Shown in pieces: positions 36,053 through 57,973 of a DNA stretch of 64,000 nt. This DNA is from Natrinema versiforme (GTDB lineage Archaea; Halobacteriota; Halobacteria; Halobacteriales; Natrialbaceae). How positions within the stretch are numbered: position 1 is the stretch's first letter; each line of letters begins with the position of its first letter. Where the stretch lies: contig NZ_CP040330.1 of assembly GCF_005576615.1 (NCBI RefSeq), positions 3,038,001 through 3,102,000 of the forward strand, written 5' to 3'. The position numbers and the translations under genes were made by a program. The notes beneath the pieces are model-generated. The model did not search any database. It saw nothing but the letters and a program-made list of their open reading frames with translations, and was not told the origin of the DNA.

Positions 36053-36054
36053 CT

Positions 36055-36285
36055 ATGCACCATCGTGTAATCCGGCTTACTGAGACAGGTGGGAAGTGGG
36101 AAGCACGCAACGTGGACATCGGTATCTCCGCGGTTGGATCGACACGTAGTGGGGCACTTGAAGAGTTGGACGACGTGGTGGATGCAGCGACTGGTGACAG
36201 TGGGCACGAACCGTCGGACGGGGAGCCTCGAGCGGTCGAGATTAACCCGGACGAGAACCGACGGCGACGCGAACGGAACCGGTGA
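36055..36285 (+). CDS. Small HicB-like protein
   Basis: A 76-residue protein, MHHRVIRLTETGGKWEARNVDIGISAVGSTRSGALEELDDVV, with the strand-strand-helix pattern (W-A-N-DIGISAVG-T---AL-ELDDVV) of HicB-type half-RNase-H folds. It is in one transcript with the micro-membrane protein. No HicA partner is adjacent, so a toxin-antitoxin role is not supported by the neighbourhood. Confidence 0.55.
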   Translation: MHHRVIRLTETGGKWEARNVDIGISAVGSTRSGALEELDDVVDAATGDSGHEPSDGEPRAVEINPDENRRRRERNR

Positions 36286-36330
36286 GAAGGTCACTCGGTC
36301 GTCTACCTCCGGAGTCCCATTTTCTGTGTG

Positions 36331-36861
36331 CTATCCGAAGATGCCCATTGCGAGAAGGATTTGGACTAGAGCAAACACAATCAGAATGACCGACGTGCCG
36401 ATCATAGCAAGCTGCATTCGCTTCGGACGCCGGATCGAGGCGTTGTAATCAGATTCGTCCCAGACGCTGAAACTGTATGCTGGGTCAGCTGCCCGTTCCC
36501 TGCCAGTTTTGAGTTGCCACCGGTCGGAATCGTTCTTCCCGGACGCTCCGGAAGTTGCGATTCCAAGTACACCGTGCCCCTCGTACGCGAGAACTTTCCC
36601 GCCCACAGTCACTGTCGTCTCCTCACCATGGTCTAACGGGCCGAATTCGACCTCTCCAGTGTGGACGATTTGCATCGGGTTTGTTTCGATAGTCCAACGG
36701 AACGCGCTGTCTTCGGAGAATTCGTATTTCGCGTCGTTATTCCGCAGGTGAACGTCGAATTCGGGTTCGTCGCTCGTGAAGTAGACCGGGTCGGGTTCTT
36801 CAACAGGCTCGACGTGTATCTCTAGGCCGTCAAATACGGTGATCGTCTGTGTTGCCGGCAT
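36331..36861 (-). CDS. Membrane-anchored beta-sandwich protein
   Basis: A 176-residue protein with an Ig-like strand pattern in the first 120 residues (FRWTIETNPMQIVHTGEVEFG, TTVTVGGKVLAYEGHGVLGI) and one C-terminal span (LAMIGTSVILIVFALVQILLAMG). Not recognised. It follows the 36866-37501 gene with only 4 bp between, probably one transcript. Confidence 0.6.
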   Translation of the reverse strand: MPATQTITVFDGLEIHVEPVEEPDPVYFTSDEPEFDVHLRNNDAKYEFSEDSAFRWTIETNPMQIVHTGEVEFGPLDHGEETTVTVGGKVLAYEGHGVLGIATSGASGKNDSDRWQLKTGRERAADPAYSFSVWDESDYNASIRRPKRMQLAMIGTSVILIVFALVQILLAMGIFG

Positions 36862-36865
36862 CCTA

Positions 36866-37501
36866 TCACAACCCGAGTACCGATGTGGCTCCGTGTGTCA
36901 ATCCAAGCACCGCCATTTGGGTGGCGACATCACTACTGATTTCGTTTGCCTTAGAGAGTATTTGTCTAAGCCGCGGCTCATCTTGCTCCCCTTCGACTTC
37001 AGCTCTGAACTCCCCGAGTAGCTCTTGCAACTCTTCTTTCTCTTCAGTTGCTCGTGGGAGGGTCTGAATCATATTCTGAATCGATTCGACCGTGACGTCT
37101 TGGTGGACTTCCTGGGTGGTTTCCTGCCGGGAATCGACAGAAACCATAACCATACGATTTGGTGACCGACTCCCAGTTTCTAATTCGGGAAGCTCGAACC
37201 CGATTGCATTCGCCATTTTTTCGCACCGGGACCGAATTTCGTGGAGAGCTTCGTCACGGCGGCGTGGTGGTGCGTATGCGTCCATCCCGGCCATTTTCCC
37301 AGACGTACCTTCCGTGTAAGCTTCGACAGGATCGGTACTCGTTACAATCGGGTTATCCGGGAACTCTTCTTTGAGTTGAGAGAGTGTTTCGTTGAATTCG
37401 TCAGCAAGAGGTTCGATAGCATCTGATTGTTCGTTGTCTATTGCCTCTGTACTGCGTTCGTATAAGCGCCCGAGTTCACTGATCCAGAATTCTGTATTCA
37501 T
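36866..37501 (-). CDS. Hypothetical helical protein
   Basis: A 211-residue protein, mostly helical with coiled-coil-like stretches (DEFNETLSQLKEEFPDN; ATEEKEELQELLGEFRAEVEGEQDE) and a weakly hydrophobic end. No family recognised. First gene of a pair with the membrane-anchored protein at 36331. Confidence 0.6.
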   Translation of the reverse strand: MNTEFWISELGRLYERSTEAIDNEQSDAIEPLADEFNETLSQLKEEFPDNPIVTSTDPVEAYTEGTSGKMAGMDAYAPPRRRDEALHEIRSRCEKMANAIGFELPELETGSRSPNRMVMVSVDSRQETTQEVHQDVTVESIQNMIQTLPRATEEKEELQELLGEFRAEVEGEQDEPRLRQILSKANEISSDVATQMAVLGLTHGATSVLGL

Positions 37502-37626
37502 GGGTTTTGCGAAGAGTGCTGTCGGGTTATATATACTCCGTGTCCTGAAACAGGATCCGATACTTAGTAGGCATTCTCAATTTGGATTCCAGCGGTTTTC
37601 ATCGTCCGGGGAGTACGAAACGCTGA

Positions 37627-38370
37627 TTAGCTGTCTTGTGAGTTCACTTCGCTAAGCGCCGTAGCAACCCGGTCGTCGTCACTCTCACCATCCAAGTACC
37701 ATCGCTTCCGTCCAGGGTCCTTGTGGATGTTTGTGAGTCCTTGCCGGCTGATCGAGAGTGATTTTGCAACGGAACGGTACGATCCTCCATCCTCTAATCG
37801 TTCGATTGCGTCCACGAGTTCGAAGTAACTGTCCTCCCCGTCGTCGGGCTCGACAACGGGCTGTAAGTACCCGTCGTCGTCGCGCCGGAACCCGGCCGGG
37901 ACATTCCCGACCCACTTACCCTGGTCTTTCGCTCGCTTCACGCCGGCTTTCACGCGCCGAATCAGTTGTCGTCGTTCATGCTGATACACCATTCCGACGA
38001 TATCAGCGACGAAGCGTCCGGTTCCGTCGGGTTTGACCTTTCCGACGGCTCCGTCGGTAATGTGAATCGTGACACCGTGTTCTTCGCACGCGTCGAAGAA
38101 TTCCAGTAGCGTGGCACCGCGGCGACTAATCCGGGAGATCTCCCACACGATCACATGGTCGAACTCGTCGTTTCGGATACCGTCGAGTAGGTCATTGAAT
38201 TGTTCGCGCTCATCGTTCGACCCGGACTCGATGTCTACGTACTGTTCGATACGGTCGCAGGGTAGATTCTGCTTATCGATGTACTGGTTGATTGAGTCCC
38301 GCTGGTGCTGGTCGTTTTGCCGCTCGGTGGACGGCCGAATGTACGTCCCGACCCGCTCCGATTTCTCCAT
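37627..38370 (-). CDS. Serine recombinase (resolvase/invertase family)
   Basis: A 247-residue small serine recombinase. The catalytic Ser is S14 in YIRPSTERQ, with R12. The conserved EISRISRRG at about 78-86 and the E-helix (RRQLIRRVKAGVKRAKDQGKWVG) follow. A Hin-type helix-turn-helix is at the C-terminus (SYRSVAKSLSISRQGLTNIHKD). All catalytic residues appear intact. It could resolve replicon dimers or invert DNA; it is a second candidate, besides the tyrosine recombinase at 44281, for operating the methylase switch 9 kb away. Confidence 0.88.
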   Translation of the reverse strand: MEKSERVGTYIRPSTERQNDQHQRDSINQYIDKQNLPCDRIEQYVDIESGSNDEREQFNDLLDGIRNDEFDHVIVWEISRISRRGATLLEFFDACEEHGVTIHITDGAVGKVKPDGTGRFVADIVGMVYQHERRQLIRRVKAGVKRAKDQGKWVGNVPAGFRRDDDGYLQPVVEPDDGEDSYFELVDAIERLEDGGSYRSVAKSLSISRQGLTNIHKDPGRKRWYLDGESDDDRVATALSEVNSQDS

Positions 38371-38541
38371 ATCTAACTTGCTGGCCTCGGCCCATTTAAA
38401 GAACAGATGCTGGTTACAGGCTGCAAACAGACACTTCTCTGGTTGCGGGGGTCACGGGGGGTGTCCAGAACTATCGCTCGACTCTGACTGCGCCGGTGAC
38501 CACCCCACCTGTCGAATGTAAATACGCCGTGAACGCGCGTT

Positions 38542-38871
38542 TCACGCCGTCGCTTGCTTCTTTCGCTCGACGTGGTCCCAGTACTCTCGCCACTCGACCG
38601 GTACGACGTCGCGTCCGTAGTACCCTTCGTGAGCGAGCTTCAGCGCTTGCTTCGCGTCGTCGCGGGTGCACCGGTCGAACGTCATGTCTTCGACGACGTG
38701 TTCGCGTGCCCATTCCGTGCTCAGCGTCCCGCGTTCGATTGATTGGCGGAAGTGGAACCAGAACGCGAGTTGTCCGTCCGCGGGGAGTCTCGGCTCCGGA
38801 TCTAAACGATCAGGAACGAGCGGGAGTGTCGAGACCCCTGCGAGCAAGCGGAGATAAGTGCGTCGGAGCAT
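38542..38871 (-). CDS. Small hypothetical protein with possible signal peptide
   Basis: A 109-residue protein with a basic then hydrophobic start (MLRRTYLRLLAGVSTLPLVP) that could be a signal or anchor, followed by a helical acidic part (RQSIERGTLSTEWAREHVVEDMTFDRCTRDD). Not recognised. A GTAC array lies about 75 bp before its start and may regulate it. Confidence 0.5.
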   Translation of the reverse strand: MLRRTYLRLLAGVSTLPLVPDRLDPEPRLPADGQLAFWFHFRQSIERGTLSTEWAREHVVEDMTFDRCTRDDAKQALKLAHEGYYGRDVVPVEWREYWDHVERKKQATA

Positions 38872-39304
38872 GCGTCGACACGGACTCAGAGGCTCTTCAA
38901 CCTACTCCCGACCGGGTGTAAGTGCATACAGACGTTCATTGTTTCTCGTGTACGTACTCGGGTACGTGCCTGTGTACACGACTTCATATCCGGAGATTTA
39001 CAAGCGCGGCCGTGAGTCCGTGTCGACGGGGCCACCCCGTTCCGGGGTGACTCCGTGACAAGTAGTAGTGGTCGCGGTTTGGTCCCGGTCGTGGGGGTCG
39101 GGGCCGCACACGCTCTCGCTAGAGTTCGGTATAGCGGTATGTGGTTTGCTGTTAGTTGTTGACGAAGTAAACACGCAAGGGAGCGATATGGTCGTGCTCA
39201 CAGTTCGCCCTCCCTGTTGACCGTCAGTCCGGTCTCCCGGCTCACGCGTCACGAATCAGGGTCGAAGCGTCTCCGTTCCGCAAGAAACAGCGTCGCGTCC
39301 GCCG
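38872..39304. other. Intergenic region with a hairpin
   Basis: About 430 bp without a convincing gene. Besides the GTAC array at 38947-38980 it holds a strong hairpin (GGCCACCCCGTTCCGGGGTG, about 39029-39048), possibly a terminator or structural site. Nothing else stands out. Confidence 0.45.
38947..38980 (-). repeat. GTAC-rich palindromic array, copy 2
   Basis: Read on the minus strand it contains ACGTACCCGAGTACGTAC, matching the theme at 28710, 49347 and 50251. It lies upstream of the minus-strand gene 38542-38871. Confidence 0.55.
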
Positions 39305-39787
39305 TCACGCTGGGGCCACGTCCCGGACATCGACACCGCGCTCGGTGATATTCTGCGTCGGGTCGTCCGGGTCGAGTCGCTTCAGGTGTACCGAGTGGTG
39401 TGGACCCCATTCGGCGCGCCATTCGTGCCCGTCATACTTGACACGGTCGCCTGATTCAACATCCGATTGCTGGATTATCCTCCTCACTTTCTCGTGGTAG
39501 TCGTCTCCCATCGTGCGCTTGTGGTCAGTGCAATAGTCGTCGTCGGGTGCCGACACCCAGTTCGGGCAGTTGTGTTCGCCGCATTCACGCTGCACGCGCG
39601 CTTGGAACTCTGAGCTACCGTACTTTTCGTAGACAGTCCTCGGTAATTGGTCTTCAATTCTCAAATTGGGGTTTCCGGGTTGGGTGCATGGGAGAGGCAG
39701 TCTACCCAACTCCACCACGTCGTCGTAGGGATGAGGGACCAAGTCGTCATTGTTGTCACCGGCAACTCCCGCAGGAAGGAACGGCAC
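39305..39787 (-). CDS. Hypothetical protein with Cys-rich middle
   Basis: A 160-residue frame. The middle part (QRECGEHNCPNWVSAPDDDYCTDHKR) has Cys and His spaced like a small treble-clef or HNH-like zinc site. The end resembles a small SH3-like barrel (GDRVKYDGHEWRAEWGPHHSVHLKRLD). The first 40 residues may not belong, because a coding segment LRIEDQLPRTV at 39633-39667 recurs inverted at 40458-40492. Not recognised. Confidence 0.5.
   Translation of the reverse strand: MPFLPAGVAGDNNDDLVPHPYDDVVELGRLPLPCTQPGNPNLRIEDQLPRTVYEKYGSSEFQARVQRECGEHNCPNWVSAPDDDYCTDHKRTMGDDYHEKVRRIIQQSDVESGDRVKYDGHEWRAEWGPHHSVHLKRLDPDDPTQNITERGVDVRDVAPA
39633..39667 (+). repeat. Inverted coding repeat, left copy
   Basis: 35 bp matching the reverse complement of 40458-40492 at 30 positions. 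On the minus strand it encodes LRIEDQLPRTV; the other copy encodes LRIDAQLPRTV on the plus strand. The pair flanks the winged-helix gene at 39994-40377. Confidence 0.6.
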
Positions 39788-39993
39788 GACCGACGGGGGT
39801 CCCCGAACGGCGGCCAGGCGACCACCGAAAGAATGGCCGAGTGACCCCGCGGGGCACGGAGCTGTGCGGTACGTGGTGGTGCGTTGAGAAGTCGTCCGAC
39901 CGGGTTATTATCCCAACGCGGTCGGGATTCCCGCATCTTCAGGTGAGGGCACCGGTTGGGTCAACCGCCCAACAGATTGTCCCTATTGGGTAT

Positions 39994-40377
39994 TTACTCA
40001 TCCTCTAGCTCGGCTTCTAACTCGGCAATCTCGGCGTCAACCTCGTCTTCGTCCACGTCTTCCGTTGGAGTTCCTACGTATTCTTTGTCTTCGAATATTC
40101 GCTCCAGTTGGTCGAGGCTGGCGACGTACCGGCGAAGGTCTTCACGGTGTTCGAGCGCGTGGTAGTGGCTGTCCCGAGTTTTCCCGATGAAGCCGTCCTT
40201 GTAGAGCCGAGTGAGCGTTGTGGTGACGGTGCCATGGGGGAGTTCGAGGTGGTCTTCGAGTTCTTTGGGTTTGAAGCCGAGTTCGATGTTGTCGTAGAGG
40301 AATGCGATTATGTCGGATTTGGCTGTCCCGGGCGTGAGTTCGACGTCGGGTTCGTGAGTGTCAAGGTGGACAGGCAT
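39994..40377 (-). CDS. Winged-helix regulator (MarR-like)
   Basis: A 127-residue protein with a winged helix at about 20-80 (IIAFLYDNIELGFKPKELEDHLELPHGTVTTTLTRLYKDGFIGKTRDSHYHAL) and an acidic coiled-coil end (DEDEVDAEIAELEAELED). Probable transcription regulator of the element. It lies between two inverted 35-bp coding repeats. Confidence 0.75.
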   Translation of the reverse strand: MPVHLDTHEPDVELTPGTAKSDIIAFLYDNIELGFKPKELEDHLELPHGTVTTTLTRLYKDGFIGKTRDSHYHALEHREDLRRYVASLDQLERIFEDKEYVGTPTEDVDEDEVDAEIAELEAELEDE

Positions 40378-40457
40378 GGTTGTGTCTCAATGTAGCTCTT
40401 TGTGTCTCATAGTAATTTCGGTGAGGTTCGGGGTCGGCCACATTGGGTAACACGTTG

Positions 40458-40492
40458 AAATTGAGAATAGATGCCCAATTACCGAGAACTGT
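40458..40492 (-). repeat. Inverted coding repeat, right copy
   Basis: Partner of 39633-39667 (30 of 35 positions identical after reverse complementing). The 790 bp between them contain the winged-helix gene. This side is only a coding fragment, LRIDAQLPRTVDV, with no intact gene around it. Confidence 0.6.
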
Positions 40493-40613
40493 AGATGTCT
40501 TGCTCGTTCATGGTGGTGTTCACCGGCACATGGCCGGTGAGAGTCCCGAGCGGGAGTCGAACCGTGCTGAAGGCCACCGGGCCGGGACCAGCTTCGAACG
40601 TCACTTCTGGTGG

Positions 40614-41294
40614 TTACTCGTCTTTGCTGCTGACGAGAATCCACACAGGTTGGTTGTGATCCATTCCGAGTTCGTTCACCGCGAACCGCTCGTGCGCGAG
40701 TCGGACTGCCTGCTGCGCGTGGTCGGCGTATTCGACGGTGTGCTCACCGGATTCGAGTGCGAGACCGATTTCATCGAAGATCCCCTCCCACGTGACGTCC
40801 GTGTACGCGGCGCAGGCGTGATCGTTCTCGAAGTAGTTCTCGTAGTCAGTGGCCGCGTCGATGTCGTGGATTATTTTTTCGTTGACGGAGTCGTCAACCG
40901 CTTCGAGGAGTTCGTTCACGTCGTCCTCACTCACCCCACCTGCCGCGCCGGAGACGTACTTTGTTGGGATTGGGTGACTGTACTCGTTGTCAATGCTGTC
41001 GTCGGTGCGGTCGGTGTCGTGCTCGATGACGACAGGGTCCGAGTTCGTCCAGTCGGCATCGGGGGCGTACTTGTCTGCGAGTCGAAGCATGAGTCCGCGG
41101 ACGTTCGTGTCCGGGTACTCGCGTTCCAGCTCGTTGAGTTCGTGCCCGCCGGTGTCCTTGGCGACCAGCGCTTGGTCGTCGTCCCGGATGACGATGTATT
41201 CGTCGTGGTTGTGGTACCATGCAGGGAGTTCTTTGTCGTTCTGCAGGTCGTGTATGAGTACGTTCGCGTCGTCTACGGTGGTTGAGTGCGTCAT
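40614..41294 (-). CDS. Hypothetical acidic protein
   Basis: A 226-residue very acidic soluble protein, MTHSTTVDDANVLIHDLQND. It has regularly spaced helices (DDVNELLEAVDDSVNEKIIHDID; ADHAQQAVRLAHERFAVNELG). Not recognised. It stands alone on the minus strand; the 41295-41340 stretch upstream is AT-rich and probably holds its promoter. Confidence 0.6.
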   Translation of the reverse strand: MTHSTTVDDANVLIHDLQNDKELPAWYHNHDEYIVIRDDDQALVAKDTGGHELNELEREYPDTNVRGLMLRLADKYAPDADWTNSDPVVIEHDTDRTDDSIDNEYSHPIPTKYVSGAAGGVSEDDVNELLEAVDDSVNEKIIHDIDAATDYENYFENDHACAAYTDVTWEGIFDEIGLALESGEHTVEYADHAQQAVRLAHERFAVNELGMDHNQPVWILVSSKDE

Positions 41295-41731
41295 TACAAC
41301 CCTACCTTTGAGATTGACATATTTAAAACTCAGTTAGAATAATTACTTATCCAAATATACGATTTTCGTGGCTTCACGGCACAGGTAGAAGCCCGGTCGG
41401 AGCGGCGAGAGGCGGCCTCTCCTCGGCGTTCCGGGGGAGAGCTCAGAAAATTACTCGACGGAGAATACAACGAATCCTCGCCGCCGGAAATCAAGATCAG
41501 AATCACTATCACATCCATGGGTCGAGTGAGCCGTCCCGCCGACGAGTGAGCAGGGGGAGCCCGGCAGCCGGCGACTGAGGCAAGCCCGGTCCGCACCGGG
41601 CGGTCAAGCAATCACTCTCACTCTCCCACCACTCACTCTTATCATAATTCTTATTCGGAGGGTAAATCCCTCAGGGTATCTCAGGGTACATCTTGGTACA
41701 TCTACGGATGAGATCGACCCTCAGAAAGTAC

Positions 41732-41953
41732 GTGGATAACCTCAGAAACCGGGCTTATCTCCCGAAATCAAGGGCGCTCAGGGTGTGAAACCCGGGAAAG
41801 AGGGTCTGAAACACCCAACAATCTGATATAAAAAGTTATCCACACACTTTCCCACGCACCCGTCAATGTAAATTCTCAACGAATATTTTCAGAAAACGAT
41901 TTTTCCACGCACATTCCCACACCCCGGAATCACTTTTCTACGCACTTATCCAC
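41732..41953. other. Iteron-like repeats, candidate origin or operator region
   Basis: The word TTATCCAC occurs at 41836-41843 and 41946-41953, its complement at 41732-41739, and TTTTCCAC at 41901-41908. Most are followed by CACGCAC or TTCCCAC words, giving a repeated block of about 20-25 bp. Shorter CTCAGGGTA and CTCAGAAA words recur just upstream. The whole 41295-41995 gap (700 bp) has no gene and is AT-rich. It could be a replication origin or a regulatory region of the 41996 gene. Confidence 0.45.
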
Positions 41954-41995
41954 AACACTACTCCGCGACGAGACCATACAATCAACCGGAGGGAC

Positions 41996-42832
41996 ATGAC
42001 CAGTGACACGACCGAAGATCGGGACGATGACGACGATATCGAACTCCCAGACGGACAGTTAGACCTCACCACCGCAGTAAGCGACGCTGCCACAAACCGT
42101 CCAATGATCGCCGTTTACTGCTGTGAACCCAGCAACGACGACATCAGAGACACGACCCGGACGCTCCTCACCCACGCGCGAGATGCACTCGGATACGACC
42201 TCAACGACGAGCGCGTCGAGAACCTCACGGCTGGTCGTGAGCATCACACGAATGGGGTGGGATACCCGCGGAGCAACGACCAAGACGGCGCAGTCGCCAC
42301 GTACGACATCGAGAACGAGTATCCGGACGGCATTGAGTACCTCCTCACCGTGGCCGAACAGCGTGAGGTGACCGGTGTCGTTACCCAATCACTCAGTGAG
42401 TTCGGCGGACCTGACTCCGCAACACGAACAGTAGGGCGCCTGCTGGACGAGGGGGCGACAGTGCACCTCATTGACGACGACCTCAAAGTCACACCGGGCG
42501 ACGACCGTGCGCGTCGATGGATTGCTGCCGCGGGCCGCGCCGCTCGCAACGATGACGAGGGTGACGGGAACGAACTCGTCGCTGAAGCTATCACCGCTGA
42601 CGGCTGGACCGGCCGCCCACCGCTCGGATTCACCGTCTCCGAGTCCGGGCAGCTCCGGCGAAACGATCAGTGGGAAGAAATCCGCAGTATAGTTAAAACG
42701 CACGACGACGGACTCATTACCGAGTACCGCGCCAGTCAACTACTCGACTGCAGCCGCGACGCGATCAGGAACGCGGCGACGAAGTACCGCGACCTATATC
42801 GTCTTGACGAACCCGACATCAATGGCAAGTAG
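41996..42832 (+). CDS. Degenerate serine-recombinase-like protein
   Basis: A 278-residue protein. An N-terminal acidic tail is followed by a resolvase-like domain: IAVYCCEPSNDD at about 37-48 occupies the place of Y-x-R-x-S-T in active enzymes, and VTQSLSEFGGPDSATRTVGRLLDEGATVHLIDD at about 128-160 the place of the xxSRxxR helix. The catalytic Arg residues are replaced, so it is probably inactive as a recombinase. The C-terminus (PPLGFTVSESGQL, then a helix-turn-helix near 245) keeps the recombinase DNA-binding layout. Next to the iteron-like region it may be an initiator, partition or regulatory protein. Confidence 0.6.
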   Translation: MTSDTTEDRDDDDDIELPDGQLDLTTAVSDAATNRPMIAVYCCEPSNDDIRDTTRTLLTHARDALGYDLNDERVENLTAGREHHTNGVGYPRSNDQDGAVATYDIENEYPDGIEYLLTVAEQREVTGVVTQSLSEFGGPDSATRTVGRLLDEGATVHLIDDDLKVTPGDDRARRWIAAAGRAARNDDEGDGNELVAEAITADGWTGRPPLGFTVSESGQLRRNDQWEEIRSIVKTHDDGLITEYRASQLLDCSRDAIRNAATKYRDLYRLDEPDINGK

Positions 42833-42850
42833 AAGCGTTCTTCTCCCGTT

Positions 42851-43297
42851 TCAATCTTCAACCCGCACCTCCACGCGGTGGGGGGTCATAGCTTCGAATT
42901 CACTGAGTCCGTCACACCGCCCGCGTTCGATTACGAACGTTTCGTCTCGAATGCACTCCCGAATCAACGCCCAGTATTCTCGCCAGAACGCGGGTTCCTC
43001 GGGTGGGTACTCGTCCTGATAGTGCACGACGTTATGCGGGTCAGCCTTCCATTCGCTGCCGACCAGGTCGAGCGGGTCGATCACGCCGACGCCTGCGTCC
43101 GGCAGGTCCGTGTCGACACGCGCCTCCGCTGTCTCGACTGTGCCGTACGGTTCCGTGACAACGAGCACGACGTGATCGTCACCCCAGACGGTTCGCCGCC
43201 ACGCGTTTTTGAACGAGTCGTAGGGCACGATGACAGTCTCGACGGTGCTGACCGATGTCGTGCGGTACGCGTCGAGTGAGCGTTGGGAGAGTGCCAT
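42851..43297 (-). CDS. Hypothetical protein
   Basis: A 148-residue protein, MALSQRSLDAYRTTSVSTVETVIVPYDSF, alpha/beta in character, no motifs recognised. It is convergent with the recombinase-like gene, with 18 bp between the two ends. Confidence 0.55.
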   Translation of the reverse strand: MALSQRSLDAYRTTSVSTVETVIVPYDSFKNAWRRTVWGDDHVVLVVTEPYGTVETAEARVDTDLPDAGVGVIDPLDLVGSEWKADPHNVVHYQDEYPPEEPAFWREYWALIRECIRDETFVIERGRCDGLSEFEAMTPHRVEVRVED

Positions 43298-43506
43298 GGT
43301 TTGTACGTAATCCAGTGAGTGCAGTGGAAACGGAGGGGGTTACGTAACGAGGTACACGTCCCCAACCTGTTCCACTCCGGGTGTGGCTGGTCATGAGGGT
43401 TTGTGGCCGGGCGGCGGCGCAACCGATTTCAAGACGGTGATTCTCTGCCGAATCGGCCTGTGAGTCTTACCTATGCTCCTGTTCTGCCGTTCGCCACAAT
43501 AAAAGA

Positions 43507-43519
43507 TTAGGTGAACTAA
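43507..43519 (+). promoter_or_regulatory. Operator TTAGGTGAACTAA, copy 1
   Basis: A 13-bp near-palindrome (TTAG, five bases, CTAA). Its exact reverse complement is at 43582-43594. The two flank a TATA-like CATAAAAATAG at about 43553-43563, just before the repressor gene at 43627, so they are likely its operators. Confidence 0.65.
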
Positions 43520-43581
43520 CCTCCAATCCAAACTACTGCCGGCTCTCGACACCCATAAAAATAGATGACTTTGAAAAGCAA

Positions 43582-43594
43582 TTAGTTCACCTAA
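43582..43594 (-). promoter_or_regulatory. Operator TTAGGTGAACTAA, copy 2
   Basis: Exact inverted copy of 43507-43519, lying between the TATA-like box and the repressor start, a good place for autorepression. Confidence 0.65.
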
Positions 43595-43626
43595 GAAATA
43601 AGGAAGAGTGGGCCAGATTCAGTGCA

Positions 43627-43875
43627 ATGTCCGAAAAGCAGGGATACCGTCCGCGCACTGTGGACGAGGAAATTCTGAACCTCATGCTCGACGGCCGCGA
43701 AGATGGCCAGCCGTGGGGATTCATTACGCCTGGTATGGTCGCTGACGCACTGGATTTCTCAAGCGAGTACGCCGTCAATCGCTTATCGATGCTTAACGCC
43801 GCTGGACTTGTCGAGAAACCAGTGAAGGGAGTATACGTAATCACCGACGATGGGGTTACCACTATTGAAGAGTAA
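43627..43875 (+). CDS. phiH1-repressor-like winged-helix protein
   Basis: An 82-residue winged-helix protein. The pattern EEILNLMLDGREDGQPWGFITPGMVADALDFSSEYAVNRLSMLNAAGLVEKPVKGVYVITDDG is shared with the 52203-52442 product (LLDGRNEGRPWG, then LSAAGLV). Two exact operator-like palindromes flank its promoter, so it is probably autorepressed. It stands 405 bp before the tyrosine recombinase gene of the methylase switch and might control it. Confidence 0.8.
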   Translation: MSEKQGYRPRTVDEEILNLMLDGREDGQPWGFITPGMVADALDFSSEYAVNRLSMLNAAGLVEKPVKGVYVITDDGVTTIEE

Positions 43876-44280
43876 TCGCTATTTGCTCCCAGAATCGTCA
43901 ACAGCCACTCTGATCTCCTGAGCGATTACTCTGATTTAGACGATCTGTGAGCGTTCTTCAACATAGGTCGAACTCAGACTTGGTGTCTACTTCTCTGTTG
44001 AATCCGCAGAATGCGTCGGGATTGAGTCACTCTGTACTCGGTTCAGGCCCGCTTCCGAGAGAGTTCAGAGATGGAATCTTGGCAAAGAGCGAGAGGATCG
44101 AGATCACTAGGTGGATCGATCCAATTCATCGACGACGAAGAGAGAGATAACCGCACCTTCAGGGATCGTGATCCCTGTGCCGTCATCGGATTCAACGGAG
44201 CAGAACGAACCAAAACTAGTTCTTGAAATGAATTCTGTCTGCTGGTCTTCTAAGCGCGTTCAGGAATCTTTCCTTAATAT
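43876..44280. other. Gap before the recombinase gene
   Basis: About 405 bp, AT-rich, without a convincing protein. It must carry the recombinase promoter (a TTAATAT stretch ends right at the ATG 44281). A missing N-terminal part of the recombinase might have been lost here, but no in-frame similarity is visible. Confidence 0.4.
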
Positions 44281-44949
44281 ATGGCTCCGGCACGACAAAA
44301 GTCACTCAGTGAGCGAGAGTTTGAATTGCTGTTGGAAGGAGCAGGACGAATTGAGAACCCCACTCAGCGACTCGAATCGAGGGCAGCAATTCTAATCGGA
44401 GGACGTCTCGGGCTGAGGCCAGGTGAGACAACCCATCTGAGTTCATCATGGGTTGATCAAGAGCGACAGATGATTCGCATCCCCGAACACCACACATGTA
44501 CTAAAGGCCAAGATGGGAACCTTTGCGGCTATTGCCGTCAGGCAATCGAACAACGCGTACGACATAACCCCGATAGTGAATTTGGAGACTTTGCCGATTT
44601 GTATTGGCTTCCGAAAACAGAAGCAGCGGCTCGACAGATACCATTCCAATTTTCCTACCGGGTCCGGGTAGCAATCGATCTCCTAATCACGGAGCACGGC
44701 GGTTGGCCATACTCTTTCTCAACCTTACAACGGAGATTGAATGCTGCTCTTGATTTGGCTCCACAGCTTTCCAGAAACGCAACGTCTCTACATGGCCTTC
44801 GAGCGACGGCCGCCTCCTACCACGCTAGCAGAGGATTGGACTTAGCAGCACTCCGAGCAATGTTCGGTTGGGAAGACATCGATACAGCTCGCCAATACCT
44901 CAACGTAGATGGGGCGATGACTCGTCGTGCGTTGAACGATATCCATTAA
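44281..44949 (+). CDS. Compact tyrosine recombinase beside the switch
   Basis: A 222-residue protein that is almost entirely catalytic domain. Visible are R46 (LGLRPGETTHL), K112 (LPKTEAAARQIPF), H171 and R174 (HGLRATAASYH), W197 (FGWEDID) and the nucleophile Y206 (ARQYLNVDG). A Cys group (C73, C82, C85) lies between the first Arg and the Lys. The N-terminal core-binding domain of usual integrases is missing. It ends 50 bp before the stop of the methylase C-terminal half on the other strand. This placement and the intact active site make it the best candidate for the invertase acting on the 27-bp repeats. Confidence 0.85.
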   Translation: MAPARQKSLSEREFELLLEGAGRIENPTQRLESRAAILIGGRLGLRPGETTHLSSSWVDQERQMIRIPEHHTCTKGQDGNLCGYCRQAIEQRVRHNPDSEFGDFADLYWLPKTEAAARQIPFQFSYRVRVAIDLLITEHGGWPYSFSTLQRRLNAALDLAPQLSRNATSLHGLRATAASYHASRGLDLAALRAMFGWEDIDTARQYLNVDGAMTRRALNDIH

Positions 44950-44998
44950 CGGAAGTTGGTTAGTTACCTCTAGTGAACTATGTATAGAACATACGACT

Positions 44999-47146
44999 CT
45001 ATGGCTTCGGGCCTTCTTCCCCAAGCATCCCGTATTTCTCAAGTACTGTGGCGAAGTAGTCCTCAGTCATAACTCGGGGGTTTGAGACCCTGTGGAAATC
45101 TTTGAGGACAAACTGAGCTTCCTTATGTTCTAAACCGTAAGCATGGAATGCTGCAGCGTCAATCTCGGCTTGGATTTCGCGCCTTGCTTCTTCAGTCGTT
45201 GCGGGATCAATTCCTCCTAGACGGTCGCGCATTTCGTCGAATTCATCACCGTAGCAACTCAGTTTAGCCGCCCGTTCTGAAATATAGTGGAACCAGTCAT
45301 CGTCCTCAGAAAGATCAGGCATCTGTGATTCTTTGAACTTATACATGACAATACCGGTGTCTACCTTAGTTCTAAGCAGGTAATCGAGCGGTATCGAGTT
45401 GAGAAGCCCGAGCTTAGCGAACAATTCCTCGTCAGAGAACATCCGGGTATAGAAGTTATGAAGTGGCCTTTCAGAGAGTCCTTCCTCGTAGGGCTGGATC
45501 AGGTAACTAGGGATAGTCAGCAACGTGTTGTGACAGACGATTCCTTTCGGCAGTACCGAGGCGATGAGTGTACGCTCATTAGTGGAATTCGAAATTCGTC
45601 GAATAGCGATTCGGTACTCAGTGGAATCTAGAAGTACGTCATTCTCGGTGAGTGGTTCCCCACGGTGTTGCTCCAGTAGCTCATTGACGAACCCTTTCTG
45701 GGAGCCCGTACCATCAAACGCTTCATAAATGGCCGCCTTAAGATCACGAACAGTTTTCTCCCGCATGCGTTGTTTGGCACTTCGCTCTGGGTCGTTTTGT
45801 TCTTCGACACTCCAGAATTCGGGTTCCTGCACGTCTGTTATGAAGTCCGGAGTATAGGAATATTGGTAAATATTCTTACCACCGTAGACAGGGTAGTCGG
45901 CTTCTGACTTATCCACGAAACGATCTGCATCACTTGTGCGACGGAGTCCCTGATACGGCTCCATGTATCCGGTTGGTGCATCTTTTGGAGCGATAGGTGG
46001 GTTATCGATAATCGATTCAAGGACACTGAGTTTTTGCTCCGATTCAATATACGGGAAGATCCCCGCTTCTGGGGAATACGATTCGAGTACCTTCCGTGGG
46101 ATCCGGACTGCTTTTTCATTGAAGTTCTCGAAGATGGAGAGATTCCCTGATTCATATTTCCCAGAGACATATTCTGTCGAACCACTGTTCTGGAACACTA
46201 CTACGCCGAACTTGTAGCGATCATCAACCTGCTTGAAAATCCCGTGGTTCTCGAAGATTGTCAGTACTTCGAGAGTAGTGTTATTCAACAGGTGGGTTCG
46301 TAGATCTTTACCTGATGCCCCGTTGAAAACCGCGCCAGGAAGAATTTGAGCGACGCGAGAAGAGTCACCCGCAAGCTGGAATACCCGCTCGAAAAAGAGA
46401 GATGAAAGGTCATTCGTGCTGGGATTGACCCGGCCATCAATCACAGGACGCTGGAGGTCGTATGCGGGCGTGTTCTTGAAGTACTCTGCACGGAGTTCCA
46501 TTTCATTCTGGTATTCCTGCCACCCTTCAGCGATATCATCATCTGCTAGGAGCTCCTCTTGGACTTGATCTTTGTCATCTGGTAGTCGTGTCCGAAATGC
46601 CTCATCGTGTTTGGAGAAATAGTCGTCACGAAGCGGCTTGATACGGTCCCATGGAGGGTTTCCGATGACAACATCGAATCCGCCGTCTTCGTACACGGGG
46701 GCGAATTCCAATACCCAGTGAAATGGGCTGAATTCCTTTAATTCCTCTATATCAACATCTTCCAGCCCCGCAGCGTGGAATTGATCTAACACTTTCTCAT
46801 TCAATTCCTGGCTATGAGAATCAACTAGCGATTCAGCAAGCTGGCGCGCATTTTGCGCCTCAGCAGTACTGGTGGCCTTTTGATGGCGTTTGATTGCGTT
46901 GATTACATCCTCATATAACTCCTGTACGCCAGTCCCGACGCCGCCTCCCCAATTGGTGAGGGACGCATCCCCGTCGTCAGTTACTTCTACTAAATTGGTG
47001 AACCCGACAAGGGAATTCCCTTGTCGGATGTTGAAATCGATATTCGGCAGCGGCTCAACCTCCTGTGGTTCGTCTTCAAGATCCGCGACCATCGAGAGCC
47101 ACAACCGAAGTTTACAGATCTCGACCGCCCCCTGGTCAATGTCCAC
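44999..47146 (-). CDS. C-terminal half (C2) of invertible Eco57I-class adenine methyltransferase
   Basis: An intact 715-residue frame, opening with GTG as V/M-DIDQGAVEICKLRLWLSMVADLEDE. It holds the catalytic GNPPWDR motif (NPPW at 163-166) of N6-adenine methyltransferases and a long C-terminal target-recognition region. Motif I is missing here and lies in the N-terminal half on the opposite strand at 47312. The first nine codons are the 27-bp repeat also found in that half, in the same frame. No promoter or ribosome site is evident at 47146, so the half is probably silent in this orientation. After inversion of 47150-48769 it would be fused in frame to give 1,202 residues. Confidence 0.88.
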   Translation of the reverse strand: MDIDQGAVEICKLRLWLSMVADLEDEPQEVEPLPNIDFNIRQGNSLVGFTNLVEVTDDGDASLTNWGGGVGTGVQELYEDVINAIKRHQKATSTAEAQNARQLAESLVDSHSQELNEKVLDQFHAAGLEDVDIEELKEFSPFHWVLEFAPVYEDGGFDVVIGNPPWDRIKPLRDDYFSKHDEAFRTRLPDDKDQVQEELLADDDIAEGWQEYQNEMELRAEYFKNTPAYDLQRPVIDGRVNPSTNDLSSLFFERVFQLAGDSSRVAQILPGAVFNGASGKDLRTHLLNNTTLEVLTIFENHGIFKQVDDRYKFGVVVFQNSGSTEYVSGKYESGNLSIFENFNEKAVRIPRKVLESYSPEAGIFPYIESEQKLSVLESIIDNPPIAPKDAPTGYMEPYQGLRRTSDADRFVDKSEADYPVYGGKNIYQYSYTPDFITDVQEPEFWSVEEQNDPERSAKQRMREKTVRDLKAAIYEAFDGTGSQKGFVNELLEQHRGEPLTENDVLLDSTEYRIAIRRISNSTNERTLIASVLPKGIVCHNTLLTIPSYLIQPYEEGLSERPLHNFYTRMFSDEELFAKLGLLNSIPLDYLLRTKVDTGIVMYKFKESQMPDLSEDDDWFHYISERAAKLSCYGDEFDEMRDRLGGIDPATTEEARREIQAEIDAAAFHAYGLEHKEAQFVLKDFHRVSNPRVMTEDYFATVLEKYGMLGEEGPKP
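47081..47122 (-). repeat. 42-bp direct repeat at start of C2 cassette
   Basis: Identical to 35584-35625 and adjoining the 27-bp inverted repeat at base 47123 without a gap. See the C1 entry. Confidence 0.85.
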
Positions 47147-47149
47147 CCC
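47123..47149 (-). repeat. 27-bp inverted repeat, C2 side (switch site)
   Basis: Perfect reverse complement of 48770-48796; the flanking bases differ on both sides. It encodes GVDIDQGAV in frame with C2. The core GGACATTGACC is an imperfect dyad, as expected of a recombinase site. Confidence 0.9.
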
Positions 47150-47311
47150 CAGTAGCCGTGACTTCCCTCACAGAAATACCAAGAGACTACTGGCAGAGTG
47201 GACTTACTTCAGGACATTACGAATATATACTCTGCACAGTGGTAATCAATTCAGAGTGAATAGTCGATAGAGTGACCACCACTTATGGCAAAAGAGGGGA
47301 TTGCATAGAGT

Positions 47312-48856
47312 ATGACTCTCCAGCAGATCACTGCGAATGATATCGCAGGCTGGGACTCTCTCCAAGATATCGCTAACTCGTTCGAGAAACGCGGGTTAAA
47401 GCCGCGTCCGAACCTTGGAGATGACAGCCAACTCGTTCTTCAGCTCGGTGACGACGAATTTGTCGTACTCGTCAACGCAGGCCCGGGTGAATCAGCTACG
47501 GACTTCAAGCCCGACAATCGTTCCCGGCATACGAACCTCGTCGCTACGAACGACTTCGAGGAGTTTACCTTCCTAACACGGATTCGCAGTTGGGAAGGCC
47601 AGCAGCACGGCCGGATCAAGCACCAGAAAATCTCGTTCAGCAAAGACCAGTTCACGCGGGACAGCGGGGAGAAGAATACCGTGCTGAAGAAGCTCAATTC
47701 GATTGAGTACGGTTCTTCTGCCGCGATTTACGACACGCTGTACGACACACAGCAGGTGGTAAAAGAGTTCTACGAAGAGTTCGAGGATCTCCGCACCGAT
47801 CTCGTTCAAGAGGTGTCCGGTGTTCCGGATGACCGTGGTGACGCTAAGCAACGCTACGTGCAGGTCATCCTTGACCGGATGATCTTCCTGTACTTCATCC
47901 AGGAGAAGCGTCTGTTGGATCGCAATCCGAACTACCTGCACGAACAGCCTAGTGACGTCGTAGATGATGGTGATGACCGGTACGAGAACTTCTACCGGCC
48001 ACTGTTCTTCGAATACCTCGCAGAAGACAAGCAGAACCCCAACTTCGGCAGTCTCCCCTACCTGAATGGGGGGTTGTTCGCCAAGAACCCTGTTGAGGAA
48101 GAATTCCCAGACGCGAAACTCGGTGAATCCGCTGAAGAGACGAACCAGCTCTTCGATGACATCTTGGACTTCCTATCTGGATGGAACTGGAACGTAGACG
48201 AGCGTCTTGACATCGTTGACCCGAAGAACCTCTCACCCGCCATTCTCGGCCACATCTTTGAGCAGACTGTCAACCAGAAGGAGATGGGCGCGTACTACAC
48301 GCCTGAAGAGATCACCGGCTTCATGTCCCGCCGGACGATCCACCCGTATCTGCTTGACCAACTCAACGACGCTGTCGATGCCGAATACGACGAAATTGAC
48401 GATGTGTTCGGTTTCCCTAGTGTAGAAGCCAGCAGTGCGGGAGAAGCGGTCGCGGATGGCGGAACGATGACACGGCAAATGCCCGCTGAGAACGTGAAGA
48501 CGAAGCATATCGAAGCGCTGTACCATGATATCCTGAAAGAGGCGCACATCCTCGATCCTGCGGTCGGTAGTGGTGCGTTCTTACTTGCTGCACAGGATGT
48601 GCTCGTGGACATTTACATGCAGTGCATCGAGTACTTCCAGCAGCTCGAACAGGAAGGGAAGGGTTGGGAGTTGGACTCTCGTACCCGCGACGAACTGGAG
48701 GAGATTAATGAAGGGCAGGGTGGGGCGTCACTGTACGCGAAGCGCACGGTGATTCTGAATAATCTGTACGGGGTGGACATTGACCAGGGGGCGGTCAGCC
48801 CCCTCTCATTGCGGCTCCCGTTCGGGAGCATCCGCGGGTTGACGCGGACCGGCTAA
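47312..48856 (+). CDS. N-terminal half of invertible Eco57I-class adenine methyltransferase
   Basis: A 514-residue frame. Residues 1-486 are true methyltransferase sequence: an N-terminal domain (LVLQLGDDEFVVLVNAGPGE), a helical region with RYVQVILDRMIFLYFIQEK, LGHIFEQTVNQKEMGAYYTPEEI, and SAM motif I DPAVGSG at 415-421. At GVDIDQGAV the frame enters the 27-bp repeat and then 19 unrelated residues (SPLSLRLPFG and on) to a stop, so the catalytic NPPW motif is absent. A TATA-like ATATATAC at about 47223 and a GAGGGG ribosome site sit inside the invertible segment, so gene and promoter would flip together. In the flipped state the start would map to 48607 and the gene would read through 44999. 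Confidence 0.88.
   Translation: MTLQQITANDIAGWDSLQDIANSFEKRGLKPRPNLGDDSQLVLQLGDDEFVVLVNAGPGESATDFKPDNRSRHTNLVATNDFEEFTFLTRIRSWEGQQHGRIKHQKISFSKDQFTRDSGEKNTVLKKLNSIEYGSSAAIYDTLYDTQQVVKEFYEEFEDLRTDLVQEVSGVPDDRGDAKQRYVQVILDRMIFLYFIQEKRLLDRNPNYLHEQPSDVVDDGDDRYENFYRPLFFEYLAEDKQNPNFGSLPYLNGGLFAKNPVEEEFPDAKLGESAEETNQLFDDILDFLSGWNWNVDERLDIVDPKNLSPAILGHIFEQTVNQKEMGAYYTPEEITGFMSRRTIHPYLLDQLNDAVDAEYDEIDDVFGFPSVEASSAGEAVADGGTMTRQMPAENVKTKHIEALYHDILKEAHILDPAVGSGAFLLAAQDVLVDIYMQCIEYFQQLEQEGKGWELDSRTRDELEEINEGQGGASLYAKRTVILNNLYGVDIDQGAVSPLSLRLPFGSIRGLTRTG
48770..48796 (+). repeat. 27-bp inverted repeat, N side (switch site)
   Basis: Exact inverted copy of 47123-47149, in frame within the N-terminal half (GVDIDQGAV). 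The 1,620 bp between the copies contain the promoter and first 486 codons of the methyltransferase. Confidence 0.9.
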
Positions 48857-54734: not shown

Positions 54735-55973
54735 ATGACCGGCGAGTACGACGAAGAAACTGTCGAGAAATACCTCACCGCAGCACGCAGCACCGACAAC
54801 GACCGCGTGGACGTGCAAGTTGAGGCGCTCCTCAACCGACTCGTTGAGCGCGTGAAGGCTGTCGACAAGAAGTGGAAGTGGTTAGACGAAGTCGGTAACG
54901 TCAAAGAGGCTCTCGCCCGGTTCGCAGAGGAAACCGGGGATCCTGGGGCCGTTATTGAACACGTAGACGAATACGGGAATGACTACGCGAATGACACCGG
55001 GCAGAAAGTCAGCACCGGCACGATCACCGGTGATATGCTGGATAAGGTCCGTGAATTGGACCGTGAAACGCGTGCAGAGTCCGGTGAAGAGTTCGAAATA
55101 GACGGTGATGGGATCGGGTTCGACCGGTACCTGGAAGAGCACCTCGTCCGAGTCGTGCAACTACGGAACACCGACCACGTGTCCAACGTAACGACGCGGT
55201 TCGAATTCGACGATGGGACGGAAATTGAGTGCGGTGAAGATCACTTGTACTGGGAGCCGTTCTTCCGAGCGGTTGCCCCGCATACGCAGATCGATTCGGG
55301 TGTGATGCGGGAATTCGCGTCACAACAAGCGACGACGCGAATCCCCGACGACGCGGGGGATGTGACCGACACCAACTCGCATGCGTACAGCCTGTACTGC
55401 AAGTTGTCGCTCGGCCCGGAAGAACGGCCGTGGTCAAAGAACACTGACCTGTGGGACAAGGCAATCAAGGATCTGATCAAAGAATACGGAACAGAAACCG
55501 TATCGACAGGTCCGCGCACGGAAGCCTGGGAGAATCTGCAGGGCAAAATCGGGGCAGCGCGCGCTACGGCGAATCTCGACGATGCAGTCGAGCACGCTGA
55601 AGTGTACGTAGACGAAGATCTGGACGAAGTGTGGGTGCCGACGAGTATGGCCGCGACGGTCGTTGAGGATGTTGAAATTGACCGGCAGGACCTGCAGATG
55701 GAACTCGCAAAGCGGGGTGTGGATAGCGATCACCTCAGCGGTGACAAGCTCGGATTCAAGGTCACGCGGAACGGGTCGTTCCAGCGGTTCTGGCGGTTCG
55801 ACGCAACGCACGAAGCGACTCCGGAGCCGCGTGAGGTTGTCGACACGATCAGCACCGGTGGCGCGTCGAACATCGGCGGGTCGTCCGGTACGGCAGCGGC
55901 TGACGGCGGGACGTACGGCCGCGACCCGACAGGCGACGAAGACAGTGACGAGAACCGGGGTGACGGCGAATGA
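54735..55973 (+). CDS. Replication-operon protein 1, unknown function
   Basis: A 412-residue acidic protein. It has a helical N-terminus (NRLVERVKAVDKKWKWLDEVGNVKEAL), a central part with beta strands (TTRFEFDDGTEIECGEDHLYWEPFFRAVAP) and a low-complexity end rich in Gly, Asp and Ser. No family recognised. It overlaps the helicase start by ATGA, so it is the first gene of a coupled four-gene operon and probably a replication accessory factor. Confidence 0.7.
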   Translation: MTGEYDEETVEKYLTAARSTDNDRVDVQVEALLNRLVERVKAVDKKWKWLDEVGNVKEALARFAEETGDPGAVIEHVDEYGNDYANDTGQKVSTGTITGDMLDKVRELDRETRAESGEEFEIDGDGIGFDRYLEEHLVRVVQLRNTDHVSNVTTRFEFDDGTEIECGEDHLYWEPFFRAVAPHTQIDSGVMREFASQQATTRIPDDAGDVTDTNSHAYSLYCKLSLGPEERPWSKNTDLWDKAIKDLIKEYGTETVSTGPRTEAWENLQGKIGAARATANLDDAVEHAEVYVDEDLDEVWVPTSMAATVVEDVEIDRQDLQMELAKRGVDSDHLSGDKLGFKVTRNGSFQRFWRFDATHEATPEPREVVDTISTGGASNIGGSSGTAAADGGTYGRDPTGDEDSDENRGDGE

Positions 55974-57973
55974 CCGGGCGCGAGAAGAACGGCGACGGCG
56001 ACGCGATCCCGGGGTGGCTCCGCGAGAACCTCCCGAAGAAACTGGACGGTATGGAACTCGTCGGGACGGACGTCGCCGGAGTAACGGACTCCGCGCGACT
56101 GTACGGCCCGCCGGGAGCCGGGAAAACCACGCAAATAACGGTGCGGACGGCCGTCGTCGCGGACGCGCTCGATCTGCACCCGAGTGATATAACGGTGTGT
56201 ACGTTCCGGACGTCGCAGGCTGACAAGGTCCGTGAACGCGGTGTTGACTGGGATGCGTTCCCGGAAGGTGACGCGGACACGTACGAGTACTGGGCGACGA
56301 CGCACGCTGTCGCAGCACGTGCGACCGGGTTCCACGACCAATTCGACGGTGAGTCCGACGACCTGGAAGGAATGGCGAATGAGAAGCAGAAACGCCGATT
56401 TTGCGACGAGTACGACGTCACGTTCCAGGTCCCGAAGCCGTGGTACTCGACGGCGTGGGACGTGTTCCATAACCTGTACACGTACGCGAAGCAGAACATG
56501 CTGGACGTCGGGTCGTCACGGTTCCTTGACGGTGACCGGTGGGACCGCCGGCCACTTGAACAGGACATGCGTGCGTGGCGGAAGCTCGACGCGTTCCACG
56601 ATGAATGGGAGAGTGGAACGTCGTTCCACGCGGTCGCTGAGGCGTGGGAGACGTGGAAACACCGACACAACGTGTACGATTTCTTCGAACAGCTGGAGGC
56701 AGCGCTCGCGGCTGACGCACCGCTCCCACTGATGGAACTCCTCGTGATCGACGAGTACCACGACGCGTACCCGCTCATGGCGACGCTGTCGGAGAAGTGG
56801 ATTCGGAACGCGGAAATCGCACTCGTCGCCGGTGACCCCGACCAGTGCATCAACTCGTTCAACGGCGCGGACCCGCGAATCTTCGAGCGACTGCACGAGC
56901 GTGTCGACAAGGACATGCCCGTGATTCACCTCCCGAAGAGTCACCGGTGTCCCACGGAGCACTACCAGGCGGCGGCGCGGATGCTCCGCGAAGAGCGTAA
57001 CGTGCCGGCGCTGGACACGGACGGGCGCGGGCTGATCAACCGGTTCCGCCCGACGCCGATTGACTACGACGACCGTGCCGGTGAATGGGATTTGCCGAAC
57101 CCTGACGAACCCGGCACGCCGGTGTGGTTGTGGTGTGAACACGGGCCGGGTGTCATGTTCCTCGCACGGACGCAACGGCAGTTAGACGGCGTCGGCGCGG
57201 CGCTCGACCGGCACGGGATCGTGTACGAATCGCAGACCGACGTGGCCGGTGACTGGGAGAAACGTCTCCGTCTCATGCGTGCACTCGACCGGGTCGCTGA
57301 CGTGCGGCCGGCGACGCAAGCGAGCGTCTTGGACGGTGACCAGTACGACGACTCCGGCCGGCAGCACGAGCGTATCGGGCGGAAACGGTTCACGCCGGAC
57401 GAGGCGTTCGCGCTGGTTGAGCACTCGGACGCGCGGGCGCTCGACGGCCAGGGTGAACTCCTCTCGCTAATCGGGACCGCACGCCTGCAGAACAACAGCG
57501 TACACGTCGATGAGTTCGCACAGCATGTGAAGGACTCGTGGTGGGGGCGGTACGCAAACGGCCGCGAGTCGATTGACGAGCTAACGTACCTCAATGACGA
57601 CGAGAAGACGGCGATGAAAATGGCGTGGACGCGGTACGAGGACCGCAAATTCACGATTGACGTCGCTGACGATACGCGACTCCTCACGATTCATGCCGCG
57701 AAGGGCGCGGAGCAAGACGACGTGGTGCTGTACGACGGGACCACGAAGCGAATCCAGGATCAGTGCGACGAGCACGACGACGAGCGGGAGAACGAAGCCC
57801 GGACCTGGTACGTCTCACTCACCCGCGCGTCGGAACGGCTGCACATCGTTCGTGACGGGCACGAATGGACGCGACAACACCTGCCGGACGACCTGGAACC
57901 CGCGGCGGCGGCCGCGGCGAAACGCGCGGCAGACCGTGACGCTGACGGCAGCACGGGAGGTGAGCAAGCATGA
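55970..57973 (+). CDS. UvrD/Rep-type superfamily 1 DNA helicase
   Basis: A 667-residue helicase with SF1A motifs in order: Walker A GPPGAGKTT (46-54), motif Ia-like TVCTFRTSQADKVRERG, motif II VIDEYHDAYPL with DEYH, motif III AGDPDQCINSFNGAD, motif IV KSHRCP, motif V TIHAAKGAEQDDVVLYDG and motif VI YVSLTRASERLHIV. It unwinds DNA 3' to 5' using ATP. ATGA overlaps couple it to the genes on both sides. It is expected to work with the downstream primase-polymerase in replicating the element. Confidence 0.92.
   Translation: MTGREKNGDGDAIPGWLRENLPKKLDGMELVGTDVAGVTDSARLYGPPGAGKTTQITVRTAVVADALDLHPSDITVCTFRTSQADKVRERGVDWDAFPEGDADTYEYWATTHAVAARATGFHDQFDGESDDLEGMANEKQKRRFCDEYDVTFQVPKPWYSTAWDVFHNLYTYAKQNMLDVGSSRFLDGDRWDRRPLEQDMRAWRKLDAFHDEWESGTSFHAVAEAWETWKHRHNVYDFFEQLEAALAADAPLPLMELLVIDEYHDAYPLMATLSEKWIRNAEIALVAGDPDQCINSFNGADPRIFERLHERVDKDMPVIHLPKSHRCPTEHYQAAARMLREERNVPALDTDGRGLINRFRPTPIDYDDRAGEWDLPNPDEPGTPVWLWCEHGPGVMFLARTQRQLDGVGAALDRHGIVYESQTDVAGDWEKRLRLMRALDRVADVRPATQASVLDGDQYDDSGRQHERIGRKRFTPDEAFALVEHSDARALDGQGELLSLIGTARLQNNSVHVDEFAQHVKDSWWGRYANGRESIDELTYLNDDEKTAMKMAWTRYEDRKFTIDVADDTRLLTIHAAKGAEQDDVVLYDGTTKRIQDQCDEHDDERENEARTWYVSLTRASERLHIVRDGHEWTRQHLPDDLEPAAAAAAKRAADRDADGSTGGEQA

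Follow-up and report, generated by a model that had tools for sequence, protein, structure and literature searches.

We analyzed a window of 64,000 nucleotides from the haloarchaeon Natrinema versiforme (assembly GCF_005576615.1, contig NZ_CP040330.1, positions 3,038,001 to 3,102,000) and identified in it an adenine methyltransferase gene that is split by an inverted repeat and lies beside a small tyrosine recombinase gene. We read this locus as a site-specific inversion switch that ancestrally alternated between 2 specificities, A and B, and put the probability of this reading at about 0.83. In the mechanism that we propose, an N6-adenine methyltransferase and a PLD-SNF2 helicase would form a two-gene defense-like modification system, and the small recombinase beside the C-terminal half of the methyltransferase (C half A) would recombine 2 inverted sites inside the methyltransferase frame, flipping the segment that holds the promoter and the N-terminal half (N half). 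In relatives and in the presumed ancestor, the 2 orientations would join one N half to 2 different C halves, and methylation specificity, presumably that of the whole system, would alternate with orientation. In the window, a later rearrangement of ~13.2 kb would have moved the block of recombinase, C half A, and N half away from the second C half (C half B), and the local switch would now give either a full-length A enzyme after a flip or a non-functional N half in the orientation drawn in the assembly.

The 2 arms of the repeat, at 47123-47149 (minus strand) and 48770-48796 (plus strand), are perfectly complementary over 27 base pairs (bp), with 1,620 nt between them. The probability that a 64-kb sequence contains such a pair by chance is of the order of 1e-7 (64000^2/2 x 4^-27), and no further copy of the arm besides these 2 was found in the 4.67-Mb genome. 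The left arm, which encodes GVDIDQGAV, is the putative recombination site opening C half A, and the right arm is the one closing the N half. Between them, the segment predicted to invert (47150-48769), the equivalent of which is inverted in Halorussus vallis (NZ_CP100003), carries a presumed promoter or leader of the methyltransferase (47150-47311, plus strand) that would move with the N half; a resembling leader is present in Natrialba taiwanensis (L035). The N half (47312-48856, plus strand) comprises 495 residues with motif I, DPAVGSG, and as drawn terminates in 19 further, out-of-context residues (SPLSLRLPFGSIRGLTRTG). C half A (44999-47149, minus strand) comprises motif IV, NPPW, and a recognition domain, matches Pfam Eco57I (E=2.7e-24), has no start of its own apart from a GTG within the repeat, and is joined to the N half after inversion only.

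Inverting the segment in silico yielded a single frame of 1,202 residues plus a stop. An initial annotation, made from the sequence alone, had anticipated this continuous gene, the perfect repeat, the distribution of DPAVGSG and NPPW over the 2 halves of an Eco57I-class enzyme, and the 19 nonsense residues ending the drawn N half, and each of these points was borne out. It had described the halves as convergent, whereas the map shows them divergent and back to back. It had also confined the feature to 47123-48796 and had passed over the adjacent candidate recombinase; the repeat does lie there, but the feature extends to the recombinase (44281-44949), C half B (33507-35628), and the helicase (29670-33506). 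The virtual 1,202-residue fusion, whose alignment to relatives had been suggested as a check, could be aligned along its whole length with 28 full-length relatives (1188-1217 residues), and conservation along it was high in the N half, reached its maximum of 0.94 at the crossover, and was low, at 0.4 to 0.65, in the C half. The predicted crossover is placed between motif I and motif IV and, judging from the motif positions, neither half would therefore be an active methylase alone. The ratio of nonsynonymous to synonymous polymorphism (pN/pS) was 0.06 for the N half and 0.08 for the helicase (both vs L034) and 0.15 for C half A (vs L057). The N half, C half A, recombinase, and helicase all have intact frames, with pN/pS of 0.06-0.15 in close comparisons, and all 4 are under purifying selection.

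Paired C halves and both orientations in relatives

We searched 293 genomes of the order for relatives and mapped the 18-kb stretches around each N half. Full-length relatives reach 94% identity in the N half, and the loci fall into 2 classes. Loci of the first class have a single-copy gene of ~1,200 residues and no recombinase. In loci of the second class, the N half lies between 2 divergent C halves that point away from it, with a 222-residue tyrosine recombinase outside one of them. The segment in these relatives carries the promoter and the N half between the 2 C halves, each of which has motif IV and a recognition domain, and the paired C halves are 50-60% identical to each other. Intact relatives have 2 full C halves and an open frame in either orientation, and swapping the halves would be predicted to change the methylated motif. 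Of the distinct complete relatives, 11 have the N half joined to the C half on the recombinase side, and 6 have it joined to the one on the helicase side.

Both orientations were found together in one plasmid record, Halorussus vallis unnamed3 (NZ_CP100003.1, G102:C4), in which bases 1-46183 repeat 121286-167465 and the repeated ends (46,183 vs 46,180 bases, 99.95-99.99% identity) reach both ends of the record. The 2 copies differ in arrangement at a single place, where the 1,515 bp between the sites are inverted exactly, with zero mismatches, and the flanking 17,508 and 6,885 bp are identical. The record is labelled complete, and its terminal redundancy of ~46 kb is probably an untrimmed circular overlap. 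In Halorussus aquaticus (NZ_CP100403.1), the switch region occurs twice, at 99.8% identity across 18 kb, perhaps through the same untrimmed-overlap effect. Draft contigs frequently break off at the site or close to it (L070, L072-L074, L080-L083, and L085), a circumstantial fit to mixed orientation left unresolved by assembly.

Some relatives are damaged. On plasmid phalar01 of halophilic archaeon DL31 (L136), the switch is wrecked by ISH3 and IS66 transposases in both C halves, and in Halobaculum roseum (L138) a transposase interrupts the C half on the helicase side. A pattern scan of IMG/VR viral contigs returned no relative of the N half. Using DNA from either side of the switch as query against 125 genomes of the family, we found no uninterrupted empty site, the matches being an unrelated regulator gene and short stretches.

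C half B and the present state of the window locus

C half B (33507-35628, minus strand), the alternative specificity half, is displaced from the N half; it directly adjoins the helicase and lies 11.5 kb from the split gene, and its homology sets in immediately past the 27-bp site sequence. When the stretch 35626-48796 was inverted in silico, the frame of the N half ran straight on into C half B with zero bases missing, and from this seamless junction we infer that the 2 were once neighbors and were parted by a 13.2-kb rearrangement. C half B has one frameshift, at a run of 7 G on the coding strand (34698-34704, minus strand), which could be a sequencing error. The joins at 35626-35690 and 48797-48840 both have CCCCTCTCA followed by hairpin-forming sequence, in direct orientation, and a serine recombinase gene of the DNA invertase type (37627-38370; PHROG_125, E 1.8e-35) lies 2 kb from one breakpoint. 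Inversion and insertion were both considered as the cause of the rearrangement, and neither is provable from these joins or from the serine invertase-like gene.

With C half B detached and frameshifted, ON/OFF behavior would be derived, that of a damaged A/B switch; on its sequence, we regard the window locus as a rearranged A/B switch that is at most ON(A)/OFF now and is drawn OFF. Comparative genomics and the 2 orientations in the plasmid of one relative argue for switching as such, and the switch in this strain probably still flips. Three points weigh against the switch reading: the redundancy in Halorussus vallis might stem from a genuine tandem duplication and not from an untrimmed overlap (one copy has inverted under both explanations); the right arm in the window measures 27 bp against ~34-80 bp of exact identity in other lineage A loci (those that share the site position of the window); and the large rearrangement rests on one assembly. 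A dead relic, in which switching ceased after the large rearrangement and left the locus locked OFF, would account for the frameshift in C half B, for an arm of only 27 bp, and for the non-productive orientation drawn. We consider it unlikely, since the arms have stayed identical at 27 of 27 positions and the N half, C half A, recombinase, and helicase retain intact frames with low pN/pS.

The initial annotation had proposed an ON/OFF phase switch. Its description of one methylase split by an invertible segment of promoter and N half, drawn in a non-productive state, holds; what does not is the restriction to ON and OFF, as the segment of the relatives lies between 2 C halves and would exchange specificity. 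C half A alone is reachable in the present window, where inversion would mean ON or OFF, and the second C half of Halobaculum roseum is interrupted by a transposase, but a segment that evolved purely to turn one methyltransferase on and off is improbable: intact relatives with 2 full C halves and a frame open either way contradict an ancestral ON/OFF state, and the window keeps C half B, displaced and frameshifted, which marks ON/OFF as derived and not as the design.

Putative recombination sites, candidate invertase, and partner helicase

The sites fall into 2 lineages. In lineage A (the window, Natrialba taiwanensis L035, L036, L136, and L139), exact identity of the arms begins sharply at the GGG of GVDID, and in lineage B (L042-L048, L076-L079, L137, L138, and L141) its start is 153 bp further upstream within the gene, at ATGCAATGYATTGAG. 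Both lineages have the motif YATTGA at a distance of 8 bp from the inner edge, and its codon phase agrees between them; this is suggestive of a shared core but does not prove one. Arms are closer within than between genomes (permutation p=0.00035, lineage B), and each of 5 distinct lineage A arm alleles has the same sequence in both arms; continued flipping or conversion of the segment would be expected to produce such likeness within a genome.

General homologous recombination between gene segments, with no dedicated recombinase, could draw on the position of the arms within homologous coding sequence and on the 159-214 nt of imperfect inverted homology at some loci. It would leave unexplained why, within a lineage, the inner edge of identity always falls abruptly at one particular base, why lineages that use different positions in the gene have YATTGA at the same offset, why the exactly matching stretch may be no longer than 27 bp, and why a recombinase tracks the two-C-half architecture, and we hold it to be very improbable. 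An assembly artefact at the 27-bp repeat or in the 13.2-kb rearrangement, for which one could cite the single assembly, the arbitrary phasing of small inverted repeats when both orientations coexist, and a G7 frameshift that might be a sequencing error, is likewise very improbable, as any read spans a 27-bp repeat, both junctions preserve the reading frame exactly, and relatives from independent projects show matching architecture.

The candidate invertase (44281-44949, plus strand) adjoins C half A and has 222 residues comprising the catalytic domain only, w​ithout the usual N-terminal core-binding domain. It matches Phage_integrase at 1.1e-10 and has the catalytic R-K-HxxR-H/W-Y of the tyrosine recombinase superfamily, with R46, K112, H171, R174, W197, and Y206 invariant across 17 homologues. 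Its structural model, with a mean predicted local distance difference test score (pLDDT) of 80.3, matches, along its full length of 222 residues, the catalytic domains of XerA (Z 19.0), of lambda Int, and of Cre. In the order-wide search, a homologue was found at 10 of 10 unbroken two-C-half loci vs none of 22 single-C-half loci (Fisher p=1.6e-8, a value that ignores kinship, as the loci are not phylogenetically independent). We infer that this recombinase does the flipping.

Homologues of the recombinase also occur in other settings. In Haloarcula vallismortis (L089:7239-13672), a 66% identical homologue lies between 2 tandem DUF1156 methylases of 902 and 930 residues that are 71% identical, an arrangement suggesting that the recombinase family serves other modification systems too. 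In Halospeciosus flavus (L086:8847-15795), a 71% identical homologue lies between HNH endonuclease paralogues of 316 and 315 residues, and this pair adjoins DUF499 and DUF1156 genes. In Halostagnicola sp. A56 (L088:9692-10871), a perfect 93-bp inverted repeat surrounds a homologue, in the vicinity of which no relative of this methylase was found. None of the distant homologues (34-43% identity, L093-L108) has a relative of this methylase beside it. Tentatively, one small recombinase family may have been recruited repeatedly across haloarchaea to diversify modification and defense genes, at 2 positions in this methylase (lineages A and B), and with close homologues lying between duplicated DUF1156 methylases (Haloarcula vallismortis) and between duplicated HNH nucleases that adjoin a DUF499/DUF1156 system (Halospeciosus flavus), although we hold this wider pattern to be somewhat doubtful.

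The partner, a PLD-SNF2 helicase or nuclease-like protein of 1,278 residues (29670-33506, plus strand), is convergent with C half B and matches Helicase_C (6.6e-17) and PLDc_2 (4.2e-9), as well as the PADLOC models C3a139 'HKD+Snf2' (2.5e-74), DrmD (1.2e-31), and BrxH (1.3e-21). A PLD-SNF2 helicase of ~1,278 residues, convergent with the native C half, is present at every N-half locus examined, save at contig ends or where divergence is large. Judging from the protein families matched, the helicase-methylase pair may have a role in defense. A 177-residue protein without an assigned family (29001-29534, minus strand) adjoins the helicase here and in L034 and L037 as well.

The methylase itself gives PADLOC-type matches to Type IIG and DrmMI. 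Its model, of moderate confidence (pLDDT 64.5), has a PglX-like fold (Foldseek 8q56, 7.9e-10, and 8c45, 5.8e-9; Z 12.2 over 395 residues against 8c45_B) and also matches the PglX/BrxX structures 8zek and 9ewz. At that confidence, a structural alignment places the C half on the parts of CamA, M.BseCI, TaqI, and PglX/BrxX that serve catalysis and recognition. Methylase and recognition domain lie in one chain, as in Type IIG enzymes (matches to CamA, M.BseCI, TaqI, MmeI, and DrdV), and the N-terminal 150 residues, a region modelled at low confidence, gave no confident nuclease-domain match. Membership of PglX of bacteriophage exclusion (BREX) systems was rejected at 41 and 25 bits vs the NCBIfam cut-off of 500, and neither pglZ nor brxC was found in the annotated neighborhoods or among the window open reading frames scanned, which were part of the total. 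Nor were drmA or drmB of the defense island system associated with restriction-modification (DISARM) found among the frames scanned or the annotated neighbors, where cross-hits were to DrmD and DrmMI only. Elsewhere in the window, in its right part, a tRNA-Pro gene (60629-60701) is a possible integration site of an element, and before it lie small genes of viral or plasmid character, along with a UvrD/GajB-like helicase (55970-57973).

Comparison with known systems and significance

Type I hsdS genes change specificity by inversion in Streptococcus, Bacteroides, and Mycoplasma. The window locus shares with them inverted repeats inside the gene of the recognition protein, alternative partial genes, an adjoining site-specific recombinase, and a predicted change in DNA specificity; unlike hsdS, which encodes a separate S subunit, it has the methylase polypeptide, catalytic domain included, cut and rejoined. 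The FimB and FimE recombinases, of similar size at ~200 residues and likewise limited to the catalytic domain, flip a short piece of DNA that carries a promoter and is bounded by short inverted repeats. The window recombinase resembles them in size and in the missing core-binding domain, the 2 traits compared, but its best structural match is the archaeal XerA, and its segment holds half a coding sequence. Features of inversion switches of the hsdS and pglX kind were found in the window (in-frame inverted repeats bounding a segment whose inversion rejoins the frames, and an adjacent recombinase) and in relatives (alternative halves on both sides, and both orientations, including those in one plasmid record). 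Literature on duplicated hsdS genes is cited in PMC10609329.

The nearest described arrangement is the BREX system of Lactobacillus rhamnosus, in which full and partial PglX genes are separated by an integrase (PMC7513527). The 2 have in common a PglX-like adenine methylase, a second partial C-terminal copy, and an adjoining integrase. In contrast, the window locus is archaeal, has one PLD-SNF2 helicase as partner, falls below BREX PglX cut-offs, and has a minimal 222-residue recombinase and a crossover between motifs I and IV. The helicase and methylase matches link it to C3a139 'HKD+Snf2', to DrmD/DrmMI of DISARM, and to BrxHI/II of BREX (PADLOC), but the core partners of DISARM and BREX were not found among the genes of the locus examined. 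In the haloarchaeal setting, DNA inversion also yields protein variants in halovirus phiCh1, where the invertible genes encode viral structural proteins (Roessler 2004 and Klein 2012, as cited in PMC8371274), whereas the window gene encodes a cellular DNA methylase.

A review of archaeal tyrosine recombinases covers inversion, and the word "methyltransferase" is absent from its text (PMC8371274); an archaeal restriction-modification survey, a paper on restriction-modification in Halobacteria, and an archaeal defense survey make no mention of inversion or phase variation. Inversion of methylation specificity is known in bacteria (hsdS and BREX pglX), and we found no archaeal cellular example in openly searchable papers, although priority is not certain. 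If the recombinase has indeed been recruited across haloarchaea, archaeal populations with mixed methylomes would follow. The anatomy of the switch is minimal, with one recombinase, one N half, 2 C halves, and one helicase, and this would make mixed archaeal methylomes, and a restriction specificity that follows the swapped half, directly testable.

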